Origin: a virus
Virus record (IMG/VR): IMGVR_UViG_3300024433_000046
Location: 1 to 25,467 of that record
Reading direction: 5' to 3' (one strand)
Length of the DNA stretch: 25,467 nucleotides
Of the stretch, positions 6,113 to 25,371 are shown one piece after another (within the stretch, counting starts at the first letter, position 1; every line of letters starts with the position of its first letter). The notes beneath the pieces were generated by a model, which worked only from the letters and a program-made list of their open reading frames with translations, had not been told where the DNA came from and searched no databases. The position numbers and the translations under genes were made by a program.

Positions 6113-6119
6113 AGTCTGA

Positions 6120-6848
6120 CTACTCTAAAACATCGTGCTGACGAGTGTTCGTGATTTGCCGCTTGTAGGGTGGTTCTCCATCAAAGGAAATGAGCCCATG
6201 CTCGCGTAACAAGATCAACTCTTTTGCTGTGAATTTTTGAGCAGTCCAAACTTTGTCGGTGATATTGAAAGGGCGATCTCGGTCGTAGCCGAATGAATAG
6301 AATCCGGCTAATTCGGGATTGGTTTGCACGAATTTAAAGAACTTGTCTTCCGCTGAAACGTGAGGAGTCGCGCTTGTTTGTGTTTCTGTTCCGAGAAACC
6401 ATCGCACAAACTCAAGACACCAATCCCATTTGAACAGGCAGAGTGAATTCGCTGCCCAAGGCATCTTAAGTCTGCCGTAGATCATTTTGCGGTCTCCAAT
6501 CTCATCATACATCTGTTTGATGTAGGGTCCGAAGGCAAGCAGATCCTGCTCCTTATAGACGAGGTCGCATTGATTGAGCCAAGCCAGGAGCGCGCCTGTG
6601 CAAACCACGATTTGATTGGCCGGGAACTTAGGCGGGTAAACTCCGTGCGTATTGGAATCCACCGTGTCTCCAACCAGATTGATCCAGTCGCCCGGCGCGT
6701 CTTTGATTGTATGGCCGCCCATAGAGATGATGCAGACTTTTTGCGGTTTTACATCCGCTTCGATCGTGTTTCGCCACCAAATAGGATAGAACCAATCCAT
6801 ACCGCTCTCCGGCTTATTGAAATAGCCGCTGACTACAAGATATTTCAC
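6120..6848 (-). CDS. glycosyltransferase-like protein with an atypical acidic motif, 242 residues
   Basis: The start is a GTG whose G-T-G-A overlaps the stop of the methyltransferase-like gene. The product opens with a hydrophobic strand (KYLVVSGYFN) and continues with WWRNTIEAD. At about 95-105 it has LVYKEQDLLAFG, where a GT-A enzyme would normally carry D-x-D; here the order is E-Q-D. A further acidic site, HVSAEDKFFKF, and a late YKRQITN follow. The overall pattern suits a small GT-A-like fold, but the altered motif means it may be inactive, use a different metal arrangement, or be a relative with another role. Soluble, cytoplasmic, no signal peptide. Confidence 0.65.
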   Translation of the reverse strand: MKYLVVSGYFNKPESGMDWFYPIWWRNTIEADVKPQKVCIISMGGHTIKDAPGDWINLVGDTVDSNTHGVYPPKFPANQIVVCTGALLAWLNQCDLVYKEQDLLAFGPYIKQMYDEIGDRKMIYGRLKMPWAANSLCLFKWDWCLEFVRWFLGTETQTSATPHVSAEDKFFKFVQTNPELAGFYSFGYDRDRPFNITDKVWTAQKFTAKELILLREHGLISFDGEPPYKRQITNTRQHDVLE

Positions 6849-7330
6849 GGTCGTTTAAAAATCGCCCATCCGTTGCGGTCGGTTTGATCATCGCCAATCA
6901 CAGCCCACTTCAAATTCAGCAGCATGGCGCGTTGCTTCGCGTTCTTTCTTTCCTTTGTGTCATCGAGCGCTGCTATCGTAAGCCTCGGCAACAGCGCATC
7001 AAACTCTTGATCCGTTGTCTCGTCGCTGCCATCGAATAGAACCATATCAATCGCTTGCGGCAGTTCGTCTATTACACCGAGCGCGTGTCCGTTGATAAAG
7101 CGAATGCGCGGGTCTTTATACCATCTGGATGCCTCCAGCCACATTTCAGGGCTTTGTTCAATCGTCCATATGCGCTGGCTTGGTCGAATCAAGCCTAGTG
7201 CAAGACAAAGCGTGCTTCCCAGCCCATGCCACGTGCCGATCTCCACAATCTTCTCGCATTGCTTTGCAAGCTCTGTCAGTGCGTCACCGAACTTCGACCC
7301 CGGCAGAATCTGTCCTTTAGGTTCGCTCAT
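6845..7330 (-). CDS. class I SAM-dependent methyltransferase-like protein, small
   Basis: The 161-residue product has the SAM-binding glycine-rich motif IVEIGTWHGLGST at about residues 28-40, an acidic residue after the next strand (WTIEQS), and VLFDGSDETTDQEFDALLP at about 97-115, with a DD near 123. The arrangement resembles the compact methyltransferases of the Methyltransf_24 type found in polysaccharide clusters. It would transfer a methyl group from SAM to a sugar or other small acceptor. The start at 7330 is chosen because its ATG overlaps the preceding stop (ATGA); an upstream in-frame ATG at 7363 would overlap the previous gene by 37 bases. Flanking glycosyltransferase-like genes suggest a sugar O-methylation role. 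Confidence 0.8.
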   Translation of the reverse strand: MSEPKGQILPGSKFGDALTELAKQCEKIVEIGTWHGLGSTLCLALGLIRPSQRIWTIEQSPEMWLEASRWYKDPRIRFINGHALGVIDELPQAIDMVLFDGSDETTDQEFDALLPRLTIAALDDTKERKNAKQRAMLLNLKWAVIGDDQTDRNGWAIFKRP

Positions 7331-8169
7331 ACTCTTTCCACTCTCACGCCATCCCCAACCCACGGCATGTATTGTTTGAGATCAGCGGGCCACTCGTGAT
7401 TCTCTTGCAGCCTCATCCACCCTTTCACCGCGTCTTTATAGAGCTTCCCGCACTCGTTGTTGCTCGATCCATAGTATTGCTCTTTGAACGCAACCTGCGC
7501 TTCCGTCGCATACGCATAGTGGTCAAACACGAGTCCTGCCGCTTCCGTCTCCGCGTGCGTGAACGGTCTTTCCGTGATCCCGTCCACCACAGGCGGCTCA
7601 TGGCTCTTCCATCTCATCCCCGGCTCCCATCGCCACACGCGCTTCCACTCGTAAGCTTCATTGTTGCCGTAGCCGTTTCTGCTTGTAATCATAATGTCCC
7701 GCCCCACGAAGTAGCGACAGTAGAAATGCGCGCAGTTTTTCACTCGATGCTCCGCGAACATCCGCGCCATGCACATGATCTGCTCTGCGCTCCAGCACTC
7801 ATCCGCATCCACCTCCCACACGAGGCTCGGCTCTCTGATCGTGTGGCATAGCGCATTGAGCATGTGCGTCTTCCCGTTCCACAGCTCGCGCTGCATCAAC
7901 TTAACGCGCGTATCCCATGCCGCGATGCTTTCCAGATACCCCGTCGTGCCGTCGATCGACAACCTCGGCGTCATCGGCGCGCACCATTTCGTGCAATGCT
8001 TGGGCGCGGCCACGCCTTCGGCAATGCGCCACTCCCACTCAAGCTCCAGTTTCTCGAACTCGCTCAAATGCCGCGTGATAAACGGCATCGCATCCAGTGC
8101 GAGCGTTACGAATACGATGCGCGGCGTCTGCGGCGTCGGGATCTTCATGGACTTTCTCTTCGTTTTCAT
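7327..8169 (-). CDS. glycosyltransferase family 2-like protein, 280 residues
   Basis: After a basic N-terminus, a strand at about 17-25 (RIVFVTLALD) begins the nucleotide-binding half. The metal-binding signature is VWEVDADECWSAEQI at about 117-131, a clear D-x-D in the context of GT2-like enzymes. A HEPP segment near 190 and DHYAYATEAQVAFKEQYYG at about 216-234 match the acceptor-side region of glycosyltransferases that act on surface glycans. No membrane helix is present, so it is cytoplasmic. It overlaps both neighbours by ATGA. Of the sugar genes here it has one of the most conventional signatures. The sugar donor is not deducible. Confidence 0.82.
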   Translation of the reverse strand: MKTKRKSMKIPTPQTPRIVFVTLALDAMPFITRHLSEFEKLELEWEWRIAEGVAAPKHCTKWCAPMTPRLSIDGTTGYLESIAAWDTRVKLMQRELWNGKTHMLNALCHTIREPSLVWEVDADECWSAEQIMCMARMFAEHRVKNCAHFYCRYFVGRDIMITSRNGYGNNEAYEWKRVWRWEPGMRWKSHEPPVVDGITERPFTHAETEAAGLVFDHYAYATEAQVAFKEQYYGSSNNECGKLYKDAVKGWMRLQENHEWPADLKQYMPWVGDGVRVERV

Positions 8170-8864
8170 ACCCTCAACAGTTCAAAATCCTTCCTATAAC
8201 TCGGCGGCAGCGCATTCGCTCTCGCATATAAATGCACGCATACCCGTTCCGCCTTCAACTCCGGCAGCGAGTCCGCGAGAATCGCAAAGCTTGAATCAAT
8301 CATGTGCAGCTCCTTTGCGTTCTCCAACAGCCCCCAATACGCGAAGATATTCTCCGTTGCCTTCGCGTCCGGTCGCACAATCTTCATGCCGCACGGCAAT
8401 CTGTTCGCAGGTATCGCAAACCCGCGCGCCGCGTCGTCATGCACAAATGCATAGTCCTCGCGCGGCCTGCTCAACTCACAACTCGGCTGTCGCGAGCATC
8501 TGAACTCATTCCATCTGAGCTGAAAATCCAGTCCTGCTTGCACGTACATGCTCCTGTCCCACGACTTGTGGTCGTAACACTTGCGATCTCCATACATGCC
8601 CAGGCATAGCACGCGCTTCCCGTGGCTCTTAACATGTGCGGTCATCTGATCCGCGAGATCATCGTCGCTCAAGCCCCGGTCATTCTGCGTGTTTACCAGC
8701 GCGATGCGCGTGCAATCGCGGAACATGAACGCCAGGCTCGTTTGATTGTGCGGCTTGCACAGCACCGTTACGTCGTGATCTTGCGCGAAGTGGCGCGTAA
8801 GCGCGTTGCACACGAGATGATCGCCCAAGCCGAGATGACCTCTTATCAAAATCTCTTTCGTCAT
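8166..8864 (-). CDS. GT-B type glycosyltransferase-like protein (heptosyltransferase/GT9-like), 232 residues
   Basis: The N-terminal GHLGLGDHLVCNALTR at about residues 9-24 closely resembles the first loop of GT9-type (ADP-heptose:LPS heptosyltransferase-like) enzymes, where the glycines shape the active site. Near the end, ELHMIDSSFAILADSL (about 185-200) matches the donor-side loop of the second GT-B domain. At 232 residues it is much shorter than typical two-domain GT9 enzymes (about 320-350), so the domains are trimmed. It overlaps neighbours by ATGA on both sides. Such enzymes extend lipopolysaccharide cores or O-glycans. Whether this one keeps transfer activity is uncertain because of its size. 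Confidence 0.75.
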   Translation of the reverse strand: MTKEILIRGHLGLGDHLVCNALTRHFAQDHDVTVLCKPHNQTSLAFMFRDCTRIALVNTQNDRGLSDDDLADQMTAHVKSHGKRVLCLGMYGDRKCYDHKSWDRSMYVQAGLDFQLRWNEFRCSRQPSCELSRPREDYAFVHDDAARGFAIPANRLPCGMKIVRPDAKATENIFAYWGLLENAKELHMIDSSFAILADSLPELKAERVCVHLYARANALPPSYRKDFELLRV

Positions 8865-9553
8865 TCCGCATACCTTTCATTTACCCTCATCATCCAATGC
8901 TCCGGGTGCGGCAAATCATCCGTGCCTACCACCTCGCCCACGAATCGGTCTCCGTTTATCCCGCCGGGAAACGGCTTCGCTTCCGGCCATAGTGCCCGCG
9001 AGCAAGAATCATGCTGCAAGCAGCTCTTCTTCGCGCCCGGCCAAACGCGCTGCGCTAAAAAAGCTTGATCCAATCCATAGCTTGTTTTCCAGATATAAGG
9101 GCGCGCGCAAAGCTTGCTCTTGATGATCGCTTCTCTCATGCTCGGCTTGATCAATCCTCCTTTCGCGCCCCACATACCGGCTCCCATAGGCAGCCAGTGG
9201 TGCGGATGATCGCGCATTACATGCCAGTCGAGCCCGCCGTCAATCCACGCGCCCACGGCAAGCGCTTCCCGCAAGCACAATCGAGAGTCCGCGTCCCTCA
9301 CGATAAACCGCTCCGCGTCGTCCATCACGCAGAACCGCCAGAACACAGCGTCCGCGATCCCATCGACCGGCCCGCGCAATTCCACACCGATCTTCTTCAA
9401 CGTCGCCGTCACAACCTTCGGCACGTCCGGCGCTGCGTAGCACACCACTTTCCACCCTGGATAGACGGAAGGCGCAAGCTCCGCGTTCTTTATCATCCCG
9501 TGCGTGTAAAGCGGATTGGAGCCGAAGAGGGAGAAGGAGATAATGCTGCTCAT
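8861..9553 (-). CDS. glycosyltransferase-like protein with RDADSR motif, 230 residues
   Basis: The product begins with a hydrophobic strand (SSIISFSLFGSNP) and has FIVRDADSRLCLREA at about 83-97, where D-A-D is the likely metal and donor-phosphate site. HVMRDHPHHW (about 111-120) and GAGMWGAKGG (about 124-133) follow, then a late helix containing YGLDQAFL. This set, RDxDSR then MRDHP then GMWG, recurs in uncharacterised GT-A-like proteins from environmental genomes, which I recognise as a pattern but cannot name as a family. Cytoplasmic, no anchor. It starts one base after the previous stop (TAGCATG) and overlaps the next start by ATGA. Confidence 0.75.
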   Translation of the reverse strand: MSSIISFSLFGSNPLYTHGMIKNAELAPSVYPGWKVVCYAAPDVPKVVTATLKKIGVELRGPVDGIADAVFWRFCVMDDAERFIVRDADSRLCLREALAVGAWIDGGLDWHVMRDHPHHWLPMGAGMWGAKGGLIKPSMREAIIKSKLCARPYIWKTSYGLDQAFLAQRVWPGAKKSCLQHDSCSRALWPEAKPFPGGINGDRFVGEVVGTDDLPHPEHWMMRVNERYAE

Positions 9554-9554
9554 G

Positions 9555-11138
9555 CTAGAAATTACTGATCAAACTCGGCATCCCGTTCTTCGCGTAAAAC
9601 TCAATCGCCCGGTCCCGATTCCACATTTTCGCCGCGCTGTTCTTATGCTTATCGCTCGTCCATGACCGATCATGTATCTCATGCAGCACGTATCCTTTAT
9701 CGATTTCGCACGCCGGAATCAATTGTTCCCAATTGAGCTTCGTGGTAAACACGCCCGCGTCTCTTCTAATCATCACCGCAAGCACAAGGTCAAACTCAAC
9801 CTCTCCGAGAAAGAAATCCGGTATCTCATTCCACCAGCGCAGCAACCACCGCTTCTTAAACGCGAACAAATCCCGTCCAAGATCATGCACGCCGCGCTGC
9901 GCCAGGACATTCGGCTCCGTTTCATACAGGCTCTTCTCGACCTTGTTGAAATTCACCCGAAAGCTTCCGCAGGCGCTCACATGTTGCAGCTTCTCTTCAA
10001 TCGCATCCAGCACTAACGGATGCAAAATCGTGTCGTTGTTCGTCCACAGGATCACATCGTCTTTATCGCGCGCGCATGTCATCGCCGGAATCAGCACATC
10101 CTTTACATACGGCAGCGCCCGCTCATCGCCCACCTCCCGAGCATCCCTGGGATAATCGCACTCCCACACGTGCGCGGGTTTGAGCTTGCCTGCTTTGTAA
10201 AGCCTCTCCCACGAGCGCAGCGCTGCCTCCGTGCGCCTCTGCGCTCCTTTATCACGCTGGCTGTGCATCTCCACAGCGTGAAATAATCTCAATGGCTCGC
10301 GCGTTACCAGCGTCGTCGCGTAACTCGCCTTCTCCCCATGTTCAATTGCCACTTGCAATTTAAACGCCATGCAGAGTTGCGGAATCGTCGCCTCTGTGTC
10401 CTTGCGCAACAGCGAGATCAATGTTCCGTCCTTGCAGCGATGAAACAGTCCCGTAGCCCTCGGCACATCCTCCAGCGTCATCGCGTTGCGCGGTTGTCCG
10501 CTCGTCTTGCGCTTCACAAACGTGGGAGGCAGTCCCTTCTCGCCGATAAAATTCCAGATCAGCTTTGTGTGGCTCGTCATCGGCAGCACGAGATCCGTCA
10601 TCGCCACGTCCCACGCCCGTCGCGTCTTGTTCTGCACGGTGATTTTGAGCAGCTTGTCCAGCACGTTCTTGTCGCCCGGATAAACCGCCACGCCACTGAG
10701 CATCCGCTCCGGCAAACCCTGCTTGTCCGGCACAACCACCTGTCCCATGAAAAGCGCCTTGTTGCGCGTGTAGATCCTCTCAATCTCGCCCAGCCACGTG
10801 GAACGCATCGGCACGCAATCCGGCTCCAACCACAGCCACGGAGCGATCACGCCCGCTGTTTGCGTGAGATGCCTCAGTGCCGTTTCAAACATCCAATTTG
10901 GTCCGATCGGCCATTTCTCCGTGGACAGTTCAAACGGCGTCGCCACGCTCTTCACGCTCTTGAAGCAGCGGCGCGCGACCGAGTAAAGCTTCGAGCACTC
11001 CATGTCCGTGAGCTTGCAGTCACGCACAAGCAGCGCGTCATTCTCCTCGCATCGCCCTAGCTCCTCGATCCAGTCGAGCAAGTTCTCGGCGAGTTGCAAA
11101 TCCGAGCGGCAGAATGGAAGGACAACGAGGAGTTTCAT
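9555..11138 (-). CDS. two-domain glycosyltransferase-like protein, 527 residues
   Basis: This is the largest member of the sugar set. The first half starts KLLVVLPFCRSD, a typical Rossmann-like opening, and has WLWLEPDCVPMRSTWL at about 101-116 with an acidic E-P-D in the metal-site position. The second half (from about 290) contains DDVILWTNNDTILHP at about 360-374, a second GT-A-like site, followed by a conserved-looking HDLGRDLFAF and DFFLGEVEFD. Tandem GT-A domains would let one protein add two sugars or alternate units, as in some bifunctional polymerases. The start at 11138 is chosen for its ATGA overlap with the upstream stop; an upstream ATG at 11153 gives five extra residues. Confidence 0.75.
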   Translation of the reverse strand: MKLLVVLPFCRSDLQLAENLLDWIEELGRCEENDALLVRDCKLTDMECSKLYSVARRCFKSVKSVATPFELSTEKWPIGPNWMFETALRHLTQTAGVIAPWLWLEPDCVPMRSTWLGEIERIYTRNKALFMGQVVVPDKQGLPERMLSGVAVYPGDKNVLDKLLKITVQNKTRRAWDVAMTDLVLPMTSHTKLIWNFIGEKGLPPTFVKRKTSGQPRNAMTLEDVPRATGLFHRCKDGTLISLLRKDTEATIPQLCMAFKLQVAIEHGEKASYATTLVTREPLRLFHAVEMHSQRDKGAQRRTEAALRSWERLYKAGKLKPAHVWECDYPRDAREVGDERALPYVKDVLIPAMTCARDKDDVILWTNNDTILHPLVLDAIEEKLQHVSACGSFRVNFNKVEKSLYETEPNVLAQRGVHDLGRDLFAFKKRWLLRWWNEIPDFFLGEVEFDLVLAVMIRRDAGVFTTKLNWEQLIPACEIDKGYVLHEIHDRSWTSDKHKNSAAKMWNRDRAIEFYAKNGMPSLISNF

Positions 11139-11491
11139 GGTTTGATCCAGCACCGGGCGTCAAGCGCTTCCATCTCTTCGCTCGTCATCTGTTTCCGAAT
11201 CATCGCCATCGGTTCGAAAACCTTTAGTTTCAATTCGCAGCCGCACGCTCCGCAGATATTCAGCCGTTCGTCGAAGGAAGTCTTCAATGTCATGCTGGAT
11301 CTCATCTCGAACGCGCGCGTCACCCATTTGGCGAAGCTCCCAGTCAAGCTCTCGTACAAGTGCGATGATTCGTTTTTCGGGCAAGTCGAGCAGATGCTTG
11401 CCCTGTGCTCCGCGACGCCCTTTCCAACCGGTTCCGCTCCGTTGATCCACCATTCCGTGATCCTTTTTGTTCCCGTGATGAGTCGATTCAT
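11135..11491 (-). CDS. cysteine-rich, probably zinc-binding protein, 118 residues
   Basis: Cysteine pairs occur as CSTC at residues 34-37 and CGACGC at 80-85, with a last Cys near 114, so a treble-clef or zinc-ribbon-like metal site is likely. Between the pairs the sequence is helical and basic. The spacing from CSTC to CGACGCELKLKV resembles short Cys-rich phage proteins of unknown function. The start at 11491 is preferred because ATGA overlaps the previous stop; the longer form from 11524 would overlap it by 37 bases. It lies between terminase and the sugar genes. It could help packaging or act as a small regulatory nucleic acid-binding protein, but this cannot be decided here. Confidence 0.72.
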   Translation of the reverse strand: MNRLITGTKRITEWWINGAEPVGKGVAEHRASICSTCPKNESSHLYESLTGSFAKWVTRAFEMRSSMTLKTSFDERLNICGACGCELKLKVFEPMAMIRKQMTSEEMEALDARCWIKP

Positions 11492-13984: not shown

Positions 13985-15124
13985 ATGTCGCAAGCGATCC
14001 CGAGCCCAGTTGACTGCTGTACGCCCTGCCCAGACGACATCACCACGCAGCTTCCGGGACCACAGGGCGCGGCGGGCGCGGCGGGTACCAACGGCACGAA
14101 CGGCGTCAATCCTTTCACGACGCTTAGCAGCGGTTTCACTGTGCCCGCTGAACTTGCCACAGTTCAAATCACCGTAGCGACTACAAGCTGGATGGTGCAA
14201 GCGCAAGGCGCGGTTGAAGGCCAGATACTCTACATTCAGTTTGCCGGGCATTACGAGGTTGTCACGGTGGATAGCGCCGTGCTCGTGACGGTGCGAAATC
14301 TTGAAGATGCGGCGAATAGTCTTTACACCGACAATGCGCCTCCAGCCACAGCCATCCCCACCGCCGGGCGCGTCTCCCCCGCAGGTTTGCAAGGCCCGGC
14401 GGGCACAAGCGCGGGCGCATCGTTTCTCATCGCAAACAATCTCTCCGAAGGCGTTGCGGCTACAATGCGCGGCAACCTCGGTCTCGGCACCGCCGCTCTC
14501 GGCACCACCGGCGTGGCCGACACCAATGTCCCGGTCATCAACGACGCGGCTGGTCTCACCGCCGGTGAAGCCGTATTTGCCACAGCAACGGGCGTTGAAT
14601 CTCTCGCGGCAGGTCCTGCTCAAACCGCGCTTGGTCTCGGCACAATGGCGCTTCAATCCGCCGCTGCTGTAGCCATTACAGGCGGCGCGCTTAACGGCAC
14701 TCTCGGATTAACTACACCGGCGGCTGCCGTTGTTACCACTCTCGCAGTTGGCACAGCCTCTCTTGTCATCGGCACTAACACTATTGCAGCCACTAATTTC
14801 TGGCCTGCAAGCGCAATTCAATCTCTTCTAGCTGCTACGACTGTTCTTCCCAACGCTGCCAAGATCAAAGTCGTTGGCAACGGCGGAGCGGTCGCACTCG
14901 TTGCCACACCCACAATCACATCTCCCGCTAGCGACGGACAACTCCTTATCATCCAAGGCACTAGCGATGTTAATACCGTTACATTTCAAGATGAATCCGC
15001 CCTCGCTGGTTCAATGCTTGAACTCGGCGCGGCATCACGTCTTCTCGGTCTTGGCGACATTCTCGTTCTCACGTGGGATTCGACTGACTCCAAGTGGTAC
15101 GAAGTCTCCTTTTCGAACAACTAA
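13985..15124 (+). CDS. tail fibre / host-recognition protein with short collagen-like tract
   Basis: The 379-residue product starts with a Cys-rich end (VDCCTPCPDD), then a short Gly-x-y tract GPQGAAGAAGTNGTNG at about 25-40, a beta-rich domain to about 125, a second short GPAGTSAG tract, and Ala/Gly/Thr-rich repeats with the phrases GNLGLGTAALGTTG and ALGLGTMALQ, typical of trimeric phage fibres. The C-terminal 100 residues (from AKIKVVGNGG to WYEVSFSNN) form a beta-rich tip that I recognise from many environmental phage fibres, probably the receptor-binding or trimerisation head. It is the first gene of the rightward operon, just downstream of repeat copy 1. Confidence 0.82.
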   Translation: MSQAIPSPVDCCTPCPDDITTQLPGPQGAAGAAGTNGTNGVNPFTTLSSGFTVPAELATVQITVATTSWMVQAQGAVEGQILYIQFAGHYEVVTVDSAVLVTVRNLEDAANSLYTDNAPPATAIPTAGRVSPAGLQGPAGTSAGASFLIANNLSEGVAATMRGNLGLGTAALGTTGVADTNVPVINDAAGLTAGEAVFATATGVESLAAGPAQTALGLGTMALQSAAAVAITGGALNGTLGLTTPAAAVVTTLAVGTASLVIGTNTIAATNFWPASAIQSLLAATTVLPNAAKIKVVGNGGAVALVATPTITSPASDGQLLIIQGTSDVNTVTFQDESALAGSMLELGAASRLLGLGDILVLTWDSTDSKWYEVSFSNN

Positions 15125-15127
15125 TCC

Positions 15128-17002
15128 GTGAGCCAATCCAACCCCAAGCTTCTCCACGACGGCTCGACCTGGATCACGCTCGGCATCAACAGCGGATCGT
15201 CTCCCGACGCTCTCCCCCGCAACCAACTCTCCTTTGCCGTCAACGCAACCATGCGCGGCGATAAGCCCCGCAACCGCCCCGGCTGGAGTCAGTTGCCTCT
15301 TACCTTCGTGGCCTATCAAGAAGGCACCGCATACGCGCAAACCGCCGCCCAAGTCCAAACCGCTTTCGAGGACGGGCTATTCCAACGCGCTGGCACTTAC
15401 ATCTGGAACGACTTCGCCACTATCCTCGCCAGCATAGGCGGGCGCATCTATGCAATCGATTGTTCCGCGTGGAACGTCACGGACATCACGATTCCGGGCG
15501 ATCCTAATCCCGCCATCCGCCCACGCGCATGGTTCGAGCAAGGCGAGATGTTCTCCTTCATCCAAGACGGACAGAGCAAACCGCTCATCTTCGACGGTTC
15601 CGGCCTGCGCCGCTCAGATGTGACCAACAAAGAGATCCCCACGGGCACGCTGATGAAATATGCCCTTGGACGCATGACTGTCGTTCTCCCTGATGGACGC
15701 AGCTTCCTCGTCGGCAACATCGTGGGCTCCACGTTCAGCGGCTCGCTCTTCTACAACTTCCGCGATTCCATCATCAAATTCGACGAGAACGACTATCTCG
15801 ACGGCGGTGGCGTCTTCTCCGCTCCACGCGAAATCACCGCTCTGGCCGAAGTCGCCACGCTTGACACCACTCTCGCACAAGGCCCGGTGCAAATCTTTAC
15901 AACCAGCGGAGCCTATAGCGCAAACTACCCTTTCGACCGGGCGGAATGGCTCACCGTCACATACCCGCTCATCACAGGCTCGCTTCTCTCACGCGGTTCC
16001 CTTTCGCAAGAAGCCACGGTCAACGTGAACAACGATGTTTGGTATCGTTCCAGCGACGGTTTGCGTTCCCTCCGCATCGCTCGTCGCAACTTCGAGGGTT
16101 GGGGCGACACTCCGCTTTCACACGAGATCGAGCGCATCCTCAAATACGACACGCCATCATTGTTGCCCTACGCATCCGGCACGCTCTTCGACAACCGTTT
16201 GTTCATGACCTGTTCGCCGCAGTTCGTTCCCGATCACGGCGTCATTCATCGCGGCCTCGTTCCACTCGACTTCGACGAGTCATCCAGCATTGCCCGCGAC
16301 GGCATCCCGGCTTACGACGGCCTCTGGACCGGCCTGCGCATCCTGCAAATCCTCACCATCGAGATCAATTCCATCCCGCGTTGTTTCGCTTTCGCACTCG
16401 ATACCAACGACAAGATCGTTCTTTACGAGCTGTCGCTTGCCAATCCATCGGACAACTACGGCACGCCGCAGGAAACCCGCATCCCCTGGCTTGTCGAATA
16501 CGCGCGTTTCGACTGGGGCGAGCGCGGTGTCGCTCAGCACAGATTCAAGAAGCTCATAGGCGGCGAGGTCTGCGTGAGCAATCTCAACGGAAGCTCCGAC
16601 GCGGGCGGCCAGATCGACTTTACAATCCGCTACCGCGCCGATTCTTATCCCGTGTGGAGTGATTGGGCCTCATGGACTGAATGCGCTGATCGCGTCTGCG
16701 CCCCCATCTTTTGCGAAGAGCCCAACCAACTCCAGGCCCGTGTCCCGATGCGCTTACCCGATCCACCTGAAGTTTGCGAAGCCTATGTGGGCGTCAACAG
16801 CGGCAAAGGCACGCCAAAGCTCACAAAATATGGCTTCGCTTTCCAAGCCCGCGTCGAGGTCATCGGCTCCGCGCAGCTCGAATCCTTGCGTCTCACCGCC
16901 ATCGACCTGCCCGAGCCTCTTTACGACGCCTGTCGCACAACCGAACCATGCCTCACGCTCCAGGCTTGCAATTCGGCCATATTCGGTTATGAAATAGCTT
17001 AG
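15128..17002 (+). CDS. tail nozzle-like protein (T7 gp12-like)
   Basis: The product has 624 residues from a GTG three bases after the previous stop; no suitable ATG lies nearer than residue 42. Near the N-terminus is NATMRGDKPRNRPGW, the Arg-Pro-Gly-Trp strand that opens many podovirus nozzle or stabilisation proteins. The body is rich in beta-propeller-like blades (FSFIQDGQSKPLIFDG, GPVQIFTTSGAYS, WYRSSDGLRSL). It would form the hexameric distal tube through which DNA leaves. The last third carries many cysteines (ADRVCAPIFCEEP, YDACRTTEPCLTLQAC), uncommon in T7 relatives. Position in a tail operon upstream of an adaptor-like gene supports the call; homology is inferred from architecture. 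Confidence 0.75.
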   Translation: MSQSNPKLLHDGSTWITLGINSGSSPDALPRNQLSFAVNATMRGDKPRNRPGWSQLPLTFVAYQEGTAYAQTAAQVQTAFEDGLFQRAGTYIWNDFATILASIGGRIYAIDCSAWNVTDITIPGDPNPAIRPRAWFEQGEMFSFIQDGQSKPLIFDGSGLRRSDVTNKEIPTGTLMKYALGRMTVVLPDGRSFLVGNIVGSTFSGSLFYNFRDSIIKFDENDYLDGGGVFSAPREITALAEVATLDTTLAQGPVQIFTTSGAYSANYPFDRAEWLTVTYPLITGSLLSRGSLSQEATVNVNNDVWYRSSDGLRSLRIARRNFEGWGDTPLSHEIERILKYDTPSLLPYASGTLFDNRLFMTCSPQFVPDHGVIHRGLVPLDFDESSSIARDGIPAYDGLWTGLRILQILTIEINSIPRCFAFALDTNDKIVLYELSLANPSDNYGTPQETRIPWLVEYARFDWGERGVAQHRFKKLIGGEVCVSNLNGSSDAGGQIDFTIRYRADSYPVWSDWASWTECADRVCAPIFCEEPNQLQARVPMRLPDPPEVCEAYVGVNSGKGTPKLTKYGFAFQARVEVIGSAQLESLRLTAIDLPEPLYDACRTTEPCLTLQACNSAIFGYEIA

Positions 17003-17013
17003 GCATAGCGAGC
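17002..17013 (+). repeat. 12-base repeat GGCATAGCGAGC, copy 2, with start-codon hairpin
   Basis: Second exact copy, 15 bases before the ATG at 17029; its first base is the last base of the preceding stop codon. Its left arm GGCATAG (17002-17008) can pair with CTATTGCC (17021-17028), leaving one bulged T and a 12-base loop, and the arm ends directly against the ATG. This fold could limit ribosome access to the gene. Confidence 0.5.
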
Positions 17014-17028
17014 GAACGCACTATTGCC

Positions 17029-17847
17029 ATGCCGTTGTCTCTCATCCCTCCCACGCTCCCGGAAGATTACTGCAATCTCACGCAACAAGAGCAGGTCAAC
17101 ACGCTCATTAGCGGAACACAGATCGTTGGCGTTGGCGCTGGCGGCGTAATCACCAGCAACTCCATTCCCGGCGTCAACGACCGCGACAAACTTTGGGCGT
17201 ATCTTCGCGCATCCGGCCAATTCTCCGGCTACATCTTCAAGTATCAAGGCGACTGGCTTGTGGAGCACGAGGAGGTTGCCAGTGGAGATGCGCGTCGTCT
17301 TTACATGGGCACGACCACGGATTTGCTTACCTATGACGGAGGCGCCAACGTCGCTGTCACCGATCGCACGGGACCGATGTGGGAGGTGGATACCGTGTTC
17401 AATGGGCGCTCTCCGATGGGGCCGGGCGCGATCCCATCCAGCGACCCGGCGAAGACTCTCGCACTCGCGGAGCAATACGGCTCTGGCTCCGTCACGCTCA
17501 CGTCCGCTCAAGCCTTTGCTTTGCAGTCTCATCAGCATGTGCTTGGCAGATTCGCAGCGATTACAAACGACGACGGTTATTTCACCTTTGGCACTACGAC
17601 GCCTCCATACGCTGACGCCGTCAATCTCGTAGGCCGCCCTATCACGGGCGATACAGGCATCTCCGCTACCAGTCCGCTCTCCGCGCTAGCGGGAGAATAT
17701 ATGATATCTGGCGAAGCCTACGATCCCGCTAGTGGCAATCCCGCTTCAAGTATCACCAACGCCGCGCACCAAACCACCCACCCTGTCGTGGGCTGTTACC
17801 TCATCAAGCGCACGGCAAGAATTTACAGAACTCCAGCCGACACATGA
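17029..17847 (+). CDS. tail appendage / receptor-type structural protein
   Basis: The 272-residue product has an N-terminus with PPTLPEDYC and NRDK-like spacing (GVNDRDKLWAYL at about 49-60), a middle Gly/Ser/Thr-rich region with a collar-like SHQHVLGRF, and an end with TTHPVVGCYLIKRTARIY. His-rich loops followed by an aromatic GCYLIKRT strand recur in tail collar or receptor proteins of short-tailed environmental phages. It is likely a minor fibre or collar subunit exposed on the virion. It overlaps the adaptor-like gene by ATGA. It has a hairpin-forming leader and no Shine-Dalgarno. Exact family not assigned. Confidence 0.7.
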   Translation: MPLSLIPPTLPEDYCNLTQQEQVNTLISGTQIVGVGAGGVITSNSIPGVNDRDKLWAYLRASGQFSGYIFKYQGDWLVEHEEVASGDARRLYMGTTTDLLTYDGGANVAVTDRTGPMWEVDTVFNGRSPMGPGAIPSSDPAKTLALAEQYGSGSVTLTSAQAFALQSHQHVLGRFAAITNDDGYFTFGTTTPPYADAVNLVGRPITGDTGISATSPLSALAGEYMISGEAYDPASGNPASSITNAAHQTTHPVVGCYLIKRTARIYRTPADT

Positions 17848-18938
17848 GACTCACTGTAGGATCCATCATCAACAATCCGCGCGTGCTCGCATCCATCGGT
17901 GGTTTGTGCCCCGGCGACCCGCGCGCTCTTGCATGGCTCAATGAAGCGGAAGCGATGATGTTGTCATACGGACGCTGGTGGGGTTCGATCCAACGTGCGC
18001 AGTTTTGCGTGTCCGAGGGCTGTTTTTCTTTCGGACCCGAGATCGAGACCGTCGAGCAAATCGCCGTCAACGGCCAGCCCATCGGCATCGTCACGAACTG
18101 GTATGCCTTCACGCAAACCCTCGCCAGCGTCAAGCAATGCGCGTGTTCGACTGGCTGCGGTTCCTCGCTCCGCTATCCCTGCAATCATCTTTACGTGGAA
18201 GACCACGGCACAGCCGTCAGCGACACCGTCACCAAAGGCTCGAACAAAGTGCTGCGCTTCTACCCGCAAACCGCTGACGTGGGTAAGAAGATCATCGTTC
18301 AAGGCTACGATTCCAACAACATTTGGGTGCGCACGAGCATAGGCGGCTCGATCTCCGACGGCGAAGAGATCACGCTCGCGCTTCCCTTCACCGACACCGT
18401 CACCGTATGGTATCCCGGCTCGCCCACCGGCATCATCAAAGACGAGACCGACTACCGCGTTCTCATGCACTCCTACGACACGAGCACGACGCTCGAAGTG
18501 CTGCTCGCGACCTATCAACCGTGGGAGACGCTTCCAACCCGGCGCAAGTTCTTCATGCCGTATTTCAGCAGTGTGCCTGGCAATTCATGTTGCTCCTCAA
18601 CCACGCCCAAAACCGTCACCGCCATCGTCAAACTCGCGCACACGCCGCTCGTTAACACCAACGACTGGTTGCTGTTTGAGAACGCCAACGCCTACAAAGC
18701 CGCGCTCATGGCCATGAAAGCGCAGGAAGAAGGCTTCGCAGACCGTTTCAACTACTACTTCTTCGGAGTCGCAGCCTCTCCCGCCAGTAATCGCGGGCCT
18801 TATCGCGCCCTCAGTCGCGGTGGCGCCATCCCTCTGCTCCGCGCCGAGCTGCGTTCCAAGACCGGCGATCGCACAGACGCCTTCGTTATTCGAGAGGCTA
18901 CGAACAGCTTGCCATATTCGCTCGCGGGCTTTATCTAA
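17844..18938 (+). CDS. tail adaptor-like protein (T7 gp11-like)
   Basis: The 364-residue product opens with VGSIINNPRVLASIG, followed by DPRALAWLNEAEAMMLSYGRWW, a helical start typical of the adaptor that binds beneath the portal. Further on are beta strands (VLRFYPQTADVGKKIIVQGYD, DTVTVWYPGSP) and a helical C-terminal part (ANAYKAALMAMKAQEEGFADRF) resembling gp11-like proteins, which form the dodecameric ring between portal and nozzle. Cysteines are abundant: CACSTGC near 99-105, Cys113, and a CC near 250. Starts by ATGA overlap. The assignment rests on architecture and on proximity to the nozzle-like gene. Confidence 0.75.
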   Translation: MRLTVGSIINNPRVLASIGGLCPGDPRALAWLNEAEAMMLSYGRWWGSIQRAQFCVSEGCFSFGPEIETVEQIAVNGQPIGIVTNWYAFTQTLASVKQCACSTGCGSSLRYPCNHLYVEDHGTAVSDTVTKGSNKVLRFYPQTADVGKKIIVQGYDSNNIWVRTSIGGSISDGEEITLALPFTDTVTVWYPGSPTGIIKDETDYRVLMHSYDTSTTLEVLLATYQPWETLPTRRKFFMPYFSSVPGNSCCSSTTPKTVTAIVKLAHTPLVNTNDWLLFENANAYKAALMAMKAQEEGFADRFNYYFFGVAASPASNRGPYRALSRGGAIPLLRAELRSKTGDRTDAFVIREATNSLPYSLAGFI

Positions 18939-18943
18939 ATGCC

Positions 18944-19516
18944 GTGCGCCGCTTCTTCATCATCGGTCCCGCTCGTTGCCGCACCGCATGGCTCGCCGCT
19001 TTCCTTTCCCACGGCACAACGCATTGCTTCCATGAACTAAGCCGCCTCGCATCGAGTTTGGAAGACTTTCACGCCAAACTAAACGCTTCTCCGCATACCG
19101 TAGTAGGCGATTCCGACTCTGGTCTTTGTCTCAACATCAAGCCTATCCTCGATGCATATCCCGATGCTCGCTACCTTCTCATCGACCGCCCGTTTAGCCA
19201 CGTGGTCAAGAGCTTTGAAGCATATTTCAACACGCGCCTTCCCCGCGAGGCATGGGAAAAACTTCTCCGCATCTACTGCACCGCACGCTCCACTGTCTCT
19301 GCCCACCCCAACGCCCGCTGTGTCCTCTTCGCCGATCTTAATGACGAATCCACGATCAAATCCGTCTGGGATTTCTGCACATTCGGCTCGTTTTGGCGCG
19401 GCGATCACTACGATCTTTTCAAAGACCTTGTAATTCAAGTGCCACGAGACTATGATTTAACGCATAAAAGCGGGTTTCTCGATGAACTCGTGCAACTCGG
19501 TTTAATGAACGCATAA
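18944..19516 (+). CDS. sulfotransferase-like protein, 190 residues
   Basis: The start is a GTG five bases after the adaptor stop. Residues 7-20 (IGPARCRTAWLAAF) form a P-loop-like 5'-phosphosulfate-binding loop as in PAPS-dependent sulfotransferases. LLIDRPFSHVVKSFEAY at about 78-94 matches the 3'-phosphate-binding strand and helix (Arg82, Ser90). VWDFCTFGSFWRGDHYDLF near the end fits the C-terminal cap of small phage and marine sulfotransferases. It would move sulfate from PAPS to a sugar or tyrosine hydroxyl in the cytoplasm. It lies inside the tail operon, not beside the glycosyltransferase genes. Other P-loop kinases are possible but fit less well. Confidence 0.75.
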   Translation: MRRFFIIGPARCRTAWLAAFLSHGTTHCFHELSRLASSLEDFHAKLNASPHTVVGDSDSGLCLNIKPILDAYPDARYLLIDRPFSHVVKSFEAYFNTRLPREAWEKLLRIYCTARSTVSAHPNARCVLFADLNDESTIKSVWDFCTFGSFWRGDHYDLFKDLVIQVPRDYDLTHKSGFLDELVQLGLMNA

Positions 19517-19517
19517 A

Positions 19518-20300
19518 ATGCCAGCTATTGCATTAGGTCTAGGCGCACTCGCAATCGGCGGCGGCTCATTCCTCTCAGGCCGAGGCGCAAAGAAAGAAGC
19601 CGCGAGCAAGCAAGCTTTCCTTCGCGACGCGGCGAGCAAAGTCCCGCTCGATTATCAAGCAGAGATCAGTCAATATCTCAAGGACATTGGCAAGCTCGGT
19701 CCCGCAGCGACCAAAGCCGCTTCCACCACGGCCACGGCGGATCAAGACGTGCTGGATGCTTTGCGTGAAAAATCCGCTCCCGGCTCCGCTGGACGCCGCG
19801 ACAAGATCCTTTCCATGATTGACTCTTATCTTGCGGGCGAGCTTTCTCCTGAGATGCAGCGTGGCATTAGCAGATCCAGTGCTGCTCGCGGAGCCGCCCG
19901 CTTCGGCAATCTTGGAGGCTCGATCCCACTCCGCGCCGAAGCCGCCGCTCTCGGACGCGCCACCGAGCAGCAGCAACAAATGGGCATGCAAGCGCTCGGC
20001 CAGTTCAACTCACTCTTCCCGTCCGCGCAGCCTATCTCCATTCTCAACTTCCTCGGCGGCACGGGCACGCAACGGCTGGCGGCACGCGGACAGGAACAGT
20101 CGCAGATGGCCAACATTCTCAGTGGCATGCCCGGCACGCCAAGCATGATGTCTTCCTACGGCAACGCTCTCACGCAAGTCGGCGGCATGGCGATGGGCGC
20201 TGGCATGATCGGTATGGCGGCAGGCGGTATGCGCGGCATGGGCGGCGGCGTATACAATCCAACATCCGCAACACACTTCAACACTTTTCCCGGACGCTAG
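19518..20300 (+). CDS. internal virion protein candidate (T7 gp14-like)
   Basis: The 260-residue product begins with a hydrophobic Gly/Ala segment (IALGLGALAIGGG), continues with long charged helices (about 30-150) containing many Gln and Ala, and ends with a Gly/Met-rich hydrophobic stretch (GGMAMGAGMIGMAAGGM) and an aromatic tail. Amphipathic and hydrophobic parts in a small protein just before two long helical proteins match the first of the T7-type ejection proteins, which leave the virion and form a channel in the host envelope. It starts one base after the sulfotransferase-like stop. Sequence-level homology is not claimed. Confidence 0.7.
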   Translation: MPAIALGLGALAIGGGSFLSGRGAKKEAASKQAFLRDAASKVPLDYQAEISQYLKDIGKLGPAATKAASTTATADQDVLDALREKSAPGSAGRRDKILSMIDSYLAGELSPEMQRGISRSSAARGAARFGNLGGSIPLRAEAAALGRATEQQQQMGMQALGQFNSLFPSAQPISILNFLGGTGTQRLAARGQEQSQMANILSGMPGTPSMMSSYGNALTQVGGMAMGAGMIGMAAGGMRGMGGGVYNPTSATHFNTFPGR

Positions 20301-20301
20301 C

Positions 20302-21522
20302 ATGCCAGCCATCATCAACGGATTCAACGCAGGCGCGAGCGCATGGAGCCGTGGTTTGCAGATCCGGCAGCAGCGCGAAGAACTCGGCCAACGCCGCGAA
20401 GAGAGCAAGTTCGACCAAGCCTACAAAGAGCGGGTGTTGAAAGGCCAGCAGTCGCAGCATGATCTAGACTCACGCATTGCCGAGATCAACTTCCAAGAGA
20501 AGCGGCGCGCGCTCGTTGAAAAGCGGCAGCTTGCTGAAGATCACATAATGGCGACTGACATTTCTGCCATCACCATGAAGAGCCTTCAGAGCGAGAAAGA
20601 CCCGGACAAACGCGCGTTGATCCTAGCCGACGGCACCATGCGCGTGGCGGGACTGGATGAGTCCCAGGCAAAGATTTTACACAGCACGGGGCTGGAATAC
20701 ATCCAGCGCACATCGCCGTTTCAAGCGACGCCGATCCCTGGCACAGAAGCAATGGCGATTACGGGTGGAGGACTCACAAATCCTAGCATTCAAAAAAGCG
20801 ATACAGGTTCGTCTTTCAGACAACTTATCAACGAGCGTAATACTGCTTTCGATTCCGGCAATGTAGAAGAAACTAAACTCTATGATGCGCGAATCGCTAA
20901 AGAAGTGGCCAGTTCTGGAATGCGCATCTCCACTAACCCAGACGGCACATTTACTTTTGAGCAAGGCGCACTCGCATCCAAAGACCCAAGCGCACTCACC
21001 GTCGGCACGAAAAGCAAATTGGAGCAGGAAGCGCTTTCCGGTCAAACCAGCATAAGCGAACTCGGGCGCTCAATCGAACTCATCAAAAAAAGTCCGTTAG
21101 CCATTGGCCCCACAGGCATCGTTCTTTCCGCTGTGGAAACTGCAAAAGGCATACTCGATCCTTTTGGCGACGATGAGATGCCCATTACAGCCACACGCGA
21201 TCAACTCACGTTCACATTCACTCAAATTGCTGCGGCGCTCCGTGTTGACAGCGGCAACATGAGTCTTTATGAACGCAAGCAGTTGGAGCGCGCTGGAGAC
21301 GTTACAAAGCTCTGGACCGCTCCACGCGAGGCCAAAGATAAATTTCAAAACCTCAAACGCGCAGTCATCGCCAAGCAGATGCGCAACTATAAAGCGCGTA
21401 ACCTCCCGATAGCTGTCGATATTCTGGCTCAAGTAGAGGAATCAGAGTTTGAGGCCATGCTCACAAGCGGGTTGATTACAGCGAACGATGCTCGTCGATG
21501 GTATCAATTACAACAGCGTTAA
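20302..21522 (+). CDS. internal virion protein candidate (T7 gp15-like)
   Basis: The 406-residue product shares its MPAI opening with the preceding protein. Residues 20-80 are a highly charged coiled coil (RQQREELGQRREESKF), followed by mixed helical sequence with KRALILADGTMRVAG and a mid-region of beta turns. The C-terminal part (from about 300) is again helical, ending ANDARRWYQLQQR. No enzyme motif, signal or membrane segment is visible. Position and helical nature suggest the middle component of the ejection complex. The start is one base after the previous stop. Confidence 0.7.
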   Translation: MPAIINGFNAGASAWSRGLQIRQQREELGQRREESKFDQAYKERVLKGQQSQHDLDSRIAEINFQEKRRALVEKRQLAEDHIMATDISAITMKSLQSEKDPDKRALILADGTMRVAGLDESQAKILHSTGLEYIQRTSPFQATPIPGTEAMAITGGGLTNPSIQKSDTGSSFRQLINERNTAFDSGNVEETKLYDARIAKEVASSGMRISTNPDGTFTFEQGALASKDPSALTVGTKSKLEQEALSGQTSISELGRSIELIKKSPLAIGPTGIVLSAVETAKGILDPFGDDEMPITATRDQLTFTFTQIAAALRVDSGNMSLYERKQLERAGDVTKLWTAPREAKDKFQNLKRAVIAKQMRNYKARNLPIAVDILAQVEESEFEAMLTSGLITANDARRWYQLQQR

Positions 21523-21523
21523 A

Positions 21524-24511
21524 ATGGCATCACTTCGAGAGCTTCCTTTGGACGATTTCATGGCGCGTGTAGGTGCATTGATACCCGCTTCATCCAACAA
21601 CACAGCCATTTCCACCGTCGATCCAGAATCCCTCGGGCCAGAAGCGTCCTCCATGCGCGAGCAAGCCATGCAGCCTTCAGTGGATCTTGACGTGGATCTC
21701 GTTCAAGCCAAAGCAAAACGCGAATCATCCCAAGCGCAGATGGAGATTCTACGCGCAGCTCAAGCACGCGACGAAGGCTTTGGCATTCGCCCAGGCACTG
21801 ATCTTAACCTAGAGAAAGGCGCTCCTCTCGGCGTGCGCGCTCGTCTCGGCTTGGATCAAAACCAATTCGAGCAATTCAAGTTGTTGGTGGAACAATACGG
21901 TGCGGAGAACGTGGACACGTCCGATGACGGGCGCTTTCTTCTGCGCAATCAGCCCGCCGAGGGAGGCGGCATAGAAGACCTCTTTGTAGATCCCGTGGGT
22001 CTAGACATAGGCGATGTGGCGGAGTTCAGCGGCGAGCTTTTCCCCATGATCAGCGGGATAATCGCCGCCAAGTTCGGGGGCAAGGTAGGCGCGACTGCGC
22101 TCCGTAGAGCAGGCTCCGCCATAGGCGCAATGGCAATCGGGGGTCAAACCGTTGGAGCCCTCCAAGATTCCATCGTGCGCGGTTACCGTCCCTTTAGCGA
22201 TGTGGATGTTTCCGACATAACATTGCAACGAGGCAAACTCGCTTTGCGTGACGCAGCGTTCGGCTCTCTCATAGCGGGCGCAGGAAAAGTCGCCACGAAG
22301 ATGCTGGAAATGCCCGGACTAGACGTAAATCTTTCCATGCGCAACATGCCGTCACGTCACCGTTTTGAAACCGCCACCACACGCGCCGCTGACAAACTCA
22401 AAGCTCAGACCGGCATCCGCTTCGAGCTGAGCCCCGCTCAAGCATCCGAACATACTCTGCTCGCGCGTTTGGAGAGCATGGTTGTGGGTCGCGTAGGCGC
22501 GGGCAGTTTCGTTGATCGCATCCGCGCTGTTCAAAACAAAGCGGAGAATGAACTCCGGCGAGTCGCGCTCGGCATGCCACGCACCATCACGGACGACGAG
22601 TTAATGTCTCTCTTGCCCAAAGCGGATGTGACGGGACAAAGCGTGCTCTCCCGACTCGGCACGGAAGCGCTGCGTCTCGAAGGCGACATAGCCAAAGCAT
22701 CACAGAAAATCCAACGCATTGGCACGCAGGAAGCACAGCAAATCGCCCGCGTCAATCTCGCCACGCCATTCAGCACATCACAAATCGGCGCTGCCGCGCG
22801 CAAACGAGCCGTGGGCGACTTCAAAGCGTTCAAAGACCGCATGAGAGCGCGTTACGATGCGTTTCTTTCCAATCCGGCAATTAGCGAGCGAAACATCCCT
22901 GCCAACGCACTTGCATCCGCAGCCAAGAAACTAGAGAAAGAACTCGTGCCCGCTGTCGAGAAAGATGTGGTCAAGAAGAGCGCTGTGCTCGACAGATTCG
23001 GCAATCCCACACAGACCATCAAGCAACAAACCGAGCGCTTGGAGAGCTTTACTCCCGCCAAGGTGAAAAGCTTTCTAGACGAGTTAAAAGGACTCCAAAA
23101 AGGCCGCGTCTCCGTCAATGACCTCAAAAAGATTCGCACTTCGATAGACGATGCCGTAGCCGAAGGTGTGGCTATCCCAGGCACAGACATTCATCAGCTC
23201 CTTGTCATCAAGGAAGCCGTCAATGACAGCATCGAAACTGCGCTTGCAGGCATGGCCGACAAGACTCTTCTGCTGCAATGGAAAAAGCTCTCAGAGGACT
23301 TCAGCGCGGGCATGTCACGATTTGACAAGATCGGGATACGCGAAATGCTCGTGAAACAAGGAGAGCGCGGCTCTGTAGGAGACGCCCATATCGCCGAGAG
23401 CTTTCTCGGCAAATCCGCCAATCACTTGGATCAGTTTAACTCTTTCAAAGCCTTTTTCGGCAACAACAGTCCGGAATTCCAAAACATGCGAGAGTTGGCG
23501 CGCAAGAAGATTTTGCACGGCTCTTTGGCTGAGCGCACAGACTGGATCGACGGGCAATTGCTTCGCTCTAAACTTAGTGCCGATGCGTTACACCCGGAAA
23601 TCGCCTCCGAACTCTTCGGCGCAACCAAAAAAGAACTCTTCCGCATCTCAGACGCGCTCTCTAAAGCACAAGGCAAGATCGGCATAGACGATCTAGACAA
23701 GCTTGCTCAATCTGGAACTTTAACAGCCAAAGAGATTCCAGCACTCATTGCAGCCGAAGCCGCGCGCGCCGAAGCCTACGGAAACAAGCTCATCAAAGCG
23801 GCAGCCAACGGCACGATCCATGCGGAGAAGATCAAGCCAAGCGATTTTATTCGCTATCTCACCAACATGGACCCGGATGACTCCGCACGGATTATAGGCT
23901 TGTTGCGTGATCGTCCCGAGCTACTCAAAAGCGTGAGCCAACTCGGTGTGGAGGACATCTGGTCCAAGATCCGCATTCGCATCGACAGCGGAGAGCAAAT
24001 TTCGCAAAAGCTTCTCAAAGACGTTCTCGGGACAGAGACTCAGCAGCGCACCTGGCAGAATATCATCGGCAACGATACGGTAGCGGCGCTAAACACTATG
24101 GTCGATTTGCTTGCTTCCCGCGAAAAAAGCACTGCATTCAAAGGCATGGGCAAGTTGGGCGGCGCGATGGATTTATCCAACCTGTTCCTACGCGGCGAGG
24201 TCGGCAGCCTGCCGGATATAGCAGGACGCTTCCTCTTGGGTGTTCTCTACAGCGGCCCTTTCAAGCGAGCTGTCACCAACCTGGCCACATCCAGCGACCG
24301 AGGGCGATTCTTAAACTCTGTGATTGCCAGCACGCCGTTCATTGAGGCTGTGATAGATCAATTTGGCACGGATGGCGCGATGCCCATCATGCAAGTGTTT
24401 CGTGAAATGATCGAACCAATGCAAGAACTTGAGATGAAAGAGCCAAGTGACTCTTTGCGCAAGCTCTCAGCGGAGGACTTTGACAGGAAGATCGCGGAAA
24501 TGTTAGAGTAG
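21524..24511 (+). CDS. large internal virion / DNA ejection protein candidate, 995 residues
   Basis: The ATG at 21524, one base after the previous stop, is preferred to the ATG at 21488, which would overlap the preceding gene by 35 bases. Residues 1-100 are mixed and acidic. About 165-215 and 240-262 are hydrophobic and Gly/Ala-rich (ELFPMISGIIAAKFGG, AAFGSLIAGAGKVATKM) and could insert in membranes. From about 275 the chain is helical with coiled-coil character, including IRFELSPAQASEHTLLARLES and KLEKELVPAVEKDV. Its size and final place match T7 gp16-type ejection proteins, but I see no lytic transglycosylase motif at the N-terminus. It probably forms the long conduit for genome entry. Confidence 0.75.
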   Translation: MASLRELPLDDFMARVGALIPASSNNTAISTVDPESLGPEASSMREQAMQPSVDLDVDLVQAKAKRESSQAQMEILRAAQARDEGFGIRPGTDLNLEKGAPLGVRARLGLDQNQFEQFKLLVEQYGAENVDTSDDGRFLLRNQPAEGGGIEDLFVDPVGLDIGDVAEFSGELFPMISGIIAAKFGGKVGATALRRAGSAIGAMAIGGQTVGALQDSIVRGYRPFSDVDVSDITLQRGKLALRDAAFGSLIAGAGKVATKMLEMPGLDVNLSMRNMPSRHRFETATTRAADKLKAQTGIRFELSPAQASEHTLLARLESMVVGRVGAGSFVDRIRAVQNKAENELRRVALGMPRTITDDELMSLLPKADVTGQSVLSRLGTEALRLEGDIAKASQKIQRIGTQEAQQIARVNLATPFSTSQIGAAARKRAVGDFKAFKDRMRARYDAFLSNPAISERNIPANALASAAKKLEKELVPAVEKDVVKKSAVLDRFGNPTQTIKQQTERLESFTPAKVKSFLDELKGLQKGRVSVNDLKKIRTSIDDAVAEGVAIPGTDIHQLLVIKEAVNDSIETALAGMADKTLLLQWKKLSEDFSAGMSRFDKIGIREMLVKQGERGSVGDAHIAESFLGKSANHLDQFNSFKAFFGNNSPEFQNMRELARKKILHGSLAERTDWIDGQLLRSKLSADALHPEIASELFGATKKELFRISDALSKAQGKIGIDDLDKLAQSGTLTAKEIPALIAAEAARAEAYGNKLIKAAANGTIHAEKIKPSDFIRYLTNMDPDDSARIIGLLRDRPELLKSVSQLGVEDIWSKIRIRIDSGEQISQKLLKDVLGTETQQRTWQNIIGNDTVAALNTMVDLLASREKSTAFKGMGKLGGAMDLSNLFLRGEVGSLPDIAGRFLLGVLYSGPFKRAVTNLATSSDRGRFLNSVIASTPFIEAVIDQFGTDGAMPIMQVFREMIEPMQELEMKEPSDSLRKLSAEDFDRKIAEMLE

Positions 24512-24773: not shown

Positions 24774-25361
24774 TCAAAGACTCGGCCCATTAGTCCACAA
24801 ATCCTCCATCTCCACGTGCGTCAACGTCCCGTTCCACACGCTCAAGTCATCCAGATCCGCCGAGCAAAAACCACCAAGCCCGCGCGGCGCGCTCCATCTC
24901 GCGCCGAGCACGCTCATTGGCAGCGGGAAACTCACAGCCAGGCGGTCTCGGAAGATCGCGTCCACATAAAGACTGATCCCGCTGCCATCCCGCGTGAAAG
25001 TCAAAAAGTGCCATTCGTTTAGCGGTATCCTGTAAGCAAACGCATAGTCTCGCGCTCCATACACCGTCAATCCCACGTGTCTAAACCTCTCGCCTGTGTT
25101 CACGCTCTCCAGCGTGATCGCGTATTTCTCATCACTTAGCAGCACCATGCCCCACGGACCCTCGACACGCTTAACCCATACGGACAAACTCCACACGCCT
25201 CTGACAGGCGCGAGACTCATAATCTCGGCACGATTCCCGCGAAAAGCGTAACTCGTCCGCGTTTGCCCGCCGTTTGTCACCTCATTGCCGTCGAAATACT
25301 TGAGCAATTCAGCGGCATTCAATTGAACCGCCGCTATTAGCAGCGCCATTATCTTCTTCAT
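24774..25361 (-). CDS. secreted LamG / concanavalin A-like lectin-fold protein
   Basis: The 195-residue product has an N-terminal signal peptide (MKKIMALLIAAVQLNAA), so it should leave the cytoplasm. The rest is one jellyroll domain of the LamG type: WSLSVWVKR near 53-61, then NEWHFLTFTRDGSGISLYVDA around residue 110-130 and a final DLDDLSVWNGTLTHVEMEDL, the classic strand and DD loop. Such domains bind glycans or act as modules in surface proteins. The ATG at 25361 is chosen because AGGAG lies five bases before it; an upstream GTG at 25367 falls inside that site. It stands alone on the minus strand with unusually strong initiation, as expected of an independently expressed cargo gene. Confidence 0.82.
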   Translation of the reverse strand: MKKIMALLIAAVQLNAAELLKYFDGNEVTNGGQTRTSYAFRGNRAEIMSLAPVRGVWSLSVWVKRVEGPWGMVLLSDEKYAITLESVNTGERFRHVGLTVYGARDYAFAYRIPLNEWHFLTFTRDGSGISLYVDAIFRDRLAVSFPLPMSVLGARWSAPRGLGGFCSADLDDLSVWNGTLTHVEMEDLWTNGPSL

Positions 25362-25371
25362 ACTCACTCCT
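25362..25371 (-). promoter_or_regulatory. strong Shine-Dalgarno site of the LamG gene
   Basis: On the minus strand AGGAGTGAGT immediately precedes the ATG at 25361, with a five-base spacer after AGGAG. It is the clearest ribosome binding site in the window and decides the start of the LamG gene. Most phage structural genes here lack such a site. Confidence 0.8.

Follow-up and report, generated by a model that had tools for sequence, protein, structure and literature searches.

A small sulfotransferase-like protein encoded just upstream of candidate ejection genes in a podovirus

What sulfotransferases do for the phages that encode them has been stated to be unclear (PMC10580990). The stretch of DNA analysed here, called the window (25,467 nucleotides; positions 1 to 25,467 of IMG/VR virus record IMGVR_UViG_3300024433_000046), comes from a short-tailed phage, a podovirus, and contains a small sulfotransferase-like gene within an apparent structural operon. 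This location raises two questions: whether the encoded protein of 190 amino acids is indeed a sulfotransferase and, if so, what it would sulfate. A first-pass annotation, made from the letters alone, had proposed a PAPS-type sulfotransferase-like protein expressed late, with a virion-linked target and a connection to a block of glycosyltransferase genes. Here we address both questions by combining structure prediction, family searches and a survey of the corresponding position in related phages.

The gene belongs to a tightly packed run of plus-strand ORFs (13985-24511). It begins 5 nt past the stop codon of the 364-aa ORF on its upstream side and ends just ahead of the ORF at 19518 (Table 1). 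A contig of a related phage, IMGVR_UViG_3300031539_005244 (L003, also L019), encodes a protein 56 % identical to it among homologues of the same neighbours, and the occurrence of this protein at the same place indicates a real gene, beyond chance. Gene order is the same in both phages, with identities along the run of 55 % (first 165 residues of a fibre-like ORF), 66, 51, 66, 56 (sulfotransferase-like) and 65 %; the terminases are 76 % identical. Thus the gene, at 56 % among neighbours of 51-66 %, is diverging at about their rate. The related contig also has an extra 182-aa ORF (L003:1262-1810, minus strand), absent from the window, that separates the sulfotransferase gene from the ejection-like one; the match of this ORF to citrate synthase is sub-threshold.

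Table 1 Features of the sulfotransferase-like gene and its neighbours in the window; residue counts refer to relatives of the 190-aa protein
Feature	Position	Strand	Basis and remarks
Sulfotransferase-like gene	18944..19516	+	GTG start, TAA stop, 190 aa; homologue in L003, AlphaFold2 model, fold search
Predicted 5'-phosphosulfate-binding loop, residues 8-17 (GPARCRTAWL)	18965..18994	+	R11 and W16 kept in all 30 relatives; strand-loop-helix in model
E31, candidate catalytic base	19034..19036	+	Glu/Asp in 28/30; preceding H30 is His in 25/30
Predicted 3'-phosphate-binding motif R82-x7-S90 (RPFSHVVKS)	19187..19213	+	R82 30/30, S90 29/30
364-aa ORF upstream	17844..18938	+	Tail/adaptor-type by position only; 66 % identity to L003 counterpart
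260-aa Gly/Ala-rich ORF	19518..20300	+	Candidate gp14/gp7-like ejection protein by position, size and composition only; 65 % identity in L003
406-aa ORF	20302..21522	+	Candidate gp15-like, by position and size only
1007-aa ORF	21488..24511	+	Candidate gp16-like, by position and size only

The neighbours had been described as adaptor-like and internal virion genes. The order and size of the genes and their counterparts in relatives agree with this description, but family matches within the window do not add to it: a Pfam and PHROGs search of the window matched neither the 364-aa nor the 1007-aa ORF to any family (for the latter, none above chance). Downstream of the gene, the size order of 260, 406 and 1007 aa is near the gp14/gp15/gp16 pattern described in PMC8954989. 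The 260-aa protein shows no homology to the ejection family phrog_598 by PHROGs search, profile comparison or family HMM, an HMM that misses T7 gp14 as well, and an AlphaFold2 (AF2) prediction (pLDDT 38) yielded no identity. Order, size and composition make it a candidate ejection protein. At the end of the window, a minus-strand gene (24774-25367) encodes a 197-aa protein in which a LamG/ConA-like lectin domain is recognised (PF13385, E 1e-12).

The nature of the 190-aa protein is best approached through its predicted fold. An AF2 model built with 17 sequences (pLDDT 90.4, pTM 0.88) displays a P-loop sulfotransferase fold with a central sheet, a strand-loop-helix 5'-phosphosulfate-binding (PSB) element and a strand-turn-helix 3'-phosphate-binding (PB) element. 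In a Foldseek search of the PDB, human or tick tyrosylprotein sulfotransferases (TPSTs) occupy the first 13 rows (best E 1.3e-6), and VIA-align ranks sulfotransferases from 1 to 15, led by a TPST with Z 12.9 over 165 residues. The top match in a search of predicted viral structures comes from an uncultured Caudovirales phage and is named 'Sulfotransferase family'. The closest fold by both methods is that of TPST1/TPST2 (PDB 5wrj, 5wri, 3ap1-3ap3), which have in common with the phage protein an arginine in the PSB loop; however, identity is about 17 % and the phage protein is much shorter and has no membrane anchor. A PSB-loop arginine is also known from Stf0 (PMC11625862), which is not among the fold matches listed. 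On this model, the protein almost certainly has the sulfotransferase fold and belongs to the superfamily, in line with the original PAPS-type assignment.

The residues predicted to bind PAPS point in the same direction. The first-pass annotation had placed a PSB loop within residues 7-20 and an Arg/Ser pair near 82 and 90; the invariant PSB arginine R11 falls inside that interval, and R82 and S90 are found exactly where the pair was expected. The residue counts in Table 1 come from 30 divergent members with only about 20-30 % identity. In a profile of three members, E31 falls within the GEETR base motif of TPST1, a weak match (E about 0.03) that serves as a pointer only. The TPST lysine of the CNKDP segment aligns, in a weak profile alignment, to S57, a position occupied by Ser, Val, Cys, Glu or Ala in relatives. 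With no counterpart of this lysine, the protein would be placed in the sulfotransferase superfamily but outside the TPST family. Overall, the 190-aa protein is probably an active sulfotransferase.

In family searches, the protein matches PHROGs 10855 (E 2.9e-9) and 38824 (E 1e-6), scores 17.8 bits against the 22.8-bit cut-off of Pfam Sulfotransfer_4 (PF17784) and matches Sulfotransfer_3 (PF13469) weakly, below cut-off; one relative (L020) clears the PF17784 cut-off with 25.5 bits. Searching viral contigs with the 190-aa protein by itself, or with a pair of sequences, at first returned the near relative only, and further members from IMG/VR and cultured phages were gathered stepwise via relatives. 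A scan of prokaryote genomes confirmed no relatives among 286 pattern matches. Deep nodes of the family tree are weakly supported. PHROG 10855, labelled 'hydrolase', comprises proteins of Pseudomonas and Stenotrophomonas siphophages that are homologous to the 190-aa protein over nearly the whole length and have the PSB and PB motifs in common with it; they differ in that position 13 is not arginine and that their genes lie in non-structural regions. Three cultured siphophages of these hosts carry such family members annotated as 'hydrolase' or 'putative nucleotide triphosphate hydrolase' (L017:7992-8543, L018:7992-8527, L041:7001-7543). Our results suggest that the 'hydrolase' label of phrog_10855 proteins is wrong.

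Placement in a structural operon, as originally claimed, is kept in relatives. In six of them (L020, L033, L034, L035, L036 and L037), a 'DNA ejection' protein is encoded next downstream of the gene or after one intervening gene (phrog_598; for L037 the assignment comes from that family's HMM). In another (L031), the gene precedes one for a phrog_418 internal virion protein, and a gp16-like protein (phrog_342) comes after that. This position corresponds to that of T7 gene 13, ahead of genes 14-16. T7 gene 13 and the GNAT proteins encoded next to internal virion proteins (PHROG 308, PHROG 1249) share the operon place with the sulfotransferase-like family but differ in fold and chemistry, being acetyltransferases. 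In L034 and L035, a sulfotransferase domain is followed by a GNAT domain in the same ORF (phrog_1249 match for L035); five further sulfotransferases have C-terminal extensions that resemble, by eye, the GNAT of L035, bringing the GNAT-like fusions to seven. In L030, L033 and L034, an Asp/Asn beta-hydroxylase (PF05118, above cut-off) separates the sulfotransferase-like gene from the next gene of the module. In the marine T4-like and the cultured siphophage relatives the gene lies elsewhere, beside oxygenases in the former and in non-structural regions in the latter.

To survey this slot, 80 loci (L044-L123; 61 once near copies were removed) were fetched by ejection protein alone, and an HMM of the sulfotransferase-like family was run over all ORFs of at least 60 aa. 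The family was found in 14 of the 80 loci, in every case just ahead of the ejection gene and in the same orientation; among non-redundant loci it was present in 11 of 61, two of these 11 being phages from which, as carriers of the gene, the ejection query had been drawn. Hand-picked slot ORFs nearest the ejection gene (n = 77) include 22 GNAT (phrog_1249), 11 phrog_10855 and 6 Asp/Asn hydroxylase proteins, with a single member of phrog_308, the family of T7 gp13 itself. None of the 91 automatically called flanking control ORFs from the same loci is a sulfotransferase, GNAT or Asp/Asn hydroxylase; they correspond to adaptor, head-closure or tail proteins or have no assigned identity. The difference between slot and flanking ORFs gives Fisher p values of 1.2e-4 for sulfotransferase, 5e-9 for GNAT and 8e-3 for hydroxylase, with the reservation that ORFs within a locus are not independent.

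We propose, with about even confidence, that the gene codes for a small sulfotransferase of the PAPS type, that the slot it occupies is one for modifying enzymes, and that the enzyme would sulfate a protein of its own operon. The enzyme would be made late, together with the structural proteins, bind PAPS via the R11 loop and the R82/S90 site, and may use E31 (or H30) as base. Its substrate would most likely be a protein of the ejection apparatus or the tail interior, modified while the head is being assembled or earlier. That the target is a virion protein, probably an ejection protein, is judged from position only and stands at slightly under an even chance. Such a target is not general for the family, given the siphophage relatives in non-structural regions and the marine ones beside oxygenases. 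Acid-flanked tyrosines are not enriched in the ejection proteins of phages having the gene, hence tyrosine is not favoured over other acceptors. The proposal is also weakened by S57 in place of the TPST lysine and by the 260-aa downstream protein of the window, which is not recognisable as an ejection protein. A wider generalisation, that podoviruses chemically modify their DNA-ejection proteins through a dedicated slot with interchangeable enzymes, here by virion-protein sulfation, is a tentative one that we consider doubtful.

Most characterised bacterial sulfotransferases have glycans, lipids and small molecules as substrates. An active enzyme could accordingly act on the host, on a lipid, a metabolite or a glycan of the surface, and might in this way prevent superinfection or change the envelope; the operon would then set only the timing of expression. 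The early or middle location of the gene in siphophage relatives is in keeping with such a host target, as is the block of likely sugar-related genes in the window, seven minus-strand ORFs at 5417-11153 between the portal-sized and terminase-like genes. In this block, a methyltransferase (PF13578) is above cut-off and glycosyltransferase families match weakly, below cut-off; the ORFs at 5420 and 6123 have a GC content of 48-49 %, compared with 56 % for the window. Two proteins of the block, however, found no match by direct protein search in 19 records carrying the sulfotransferase-like gene, several of them 40-59 kb long and most perhaps fragments. The direct searches replaced a test with the glycosyltransferase profile PF00535, which had no match in 20 records and was uninformative because it also misses the block of the window itself. 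The lack of co-occurrence that would speak against a sulfated glycan is thus largely what these two proteins show, and the suggested glycosyltransferase link is weakened rather than disproved. Against a host target, too, are the tight conservation of the slot beside ejection genes and the identity of its other occupants, since GNAT and Asp/Asn hydroxylases are classes that often modify proteins. Overall, we regard action on the host as somewhat unlikely.

A different possibility is that the fold has been kept and catalysis lost, the protein instead helping the ejection proteins as a chaperone or assembly factor, a part that T7 gp13 might also play. Its length of 190 aa leaves scant room for an acceptor site, the Pfam score is under the cut-off, and T7 gp13, at this same position, is thought to be active in morphogenesis (PMC6775973). 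Nevertheless, a dead scaffold would have no need for R11, R82, S90 and an acidic residue 31, which are conserved across the 30 divergent members despite their low identity, and we consider such a loss of activity unlikely. A nucleotide kinase or other P-loop NTPase, the alternative fold named in the first-pass annotation and one to which the 'nucleotide triphosphate hydrolase' label of cultured relatives and the kinases in the fold list might point, is very improbable: kinases appear only from Z 10.9 down, below all sulfotransferases and over about 145 rather than 165 residues, as expected from a shared P-loop core, and the Walker A motif GxxxxGK[ST] with its lysine is absent from the 190-aa protein (GPARCRTAW instead) and from every family member, whereas the R-x7-S motif is conserved.

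Two puzzles meet here, the role of phage sulfotransferases and the job of the gene beside T7-type ejection proteins. That a single conserved slot holds sulfotransferases as well as acetyltransferases and hydroxylases, in some cases as fusions, turns both into a single testable question: are the proteins of the DNA-injection channel modified? It was already known that a GNAT is found beside internal virion proteins; it has been equated with T7 gp13 and a role in virion morphogenesis suggested (PMC6775973). A literature search, conducted mostly without subscription papers, found no paper that reports sulfotransferases in this slot or treats it as a site for several modifying enzymes.

Further gene types were seen during this work. 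The recurrent slot, some 1.3 kb ahead of the ejection gene in the 61 loci, occasionally holds cupin-like genes as well, and in one locus (L059) it contains an apparent radical SAM/B12-binding protein. In a marine T4-like phage (L002:6567-8043), two ORFs that resemble, by eye, 2OG-Fe(II) oxygenases come after the sulfotransferase-like gene.
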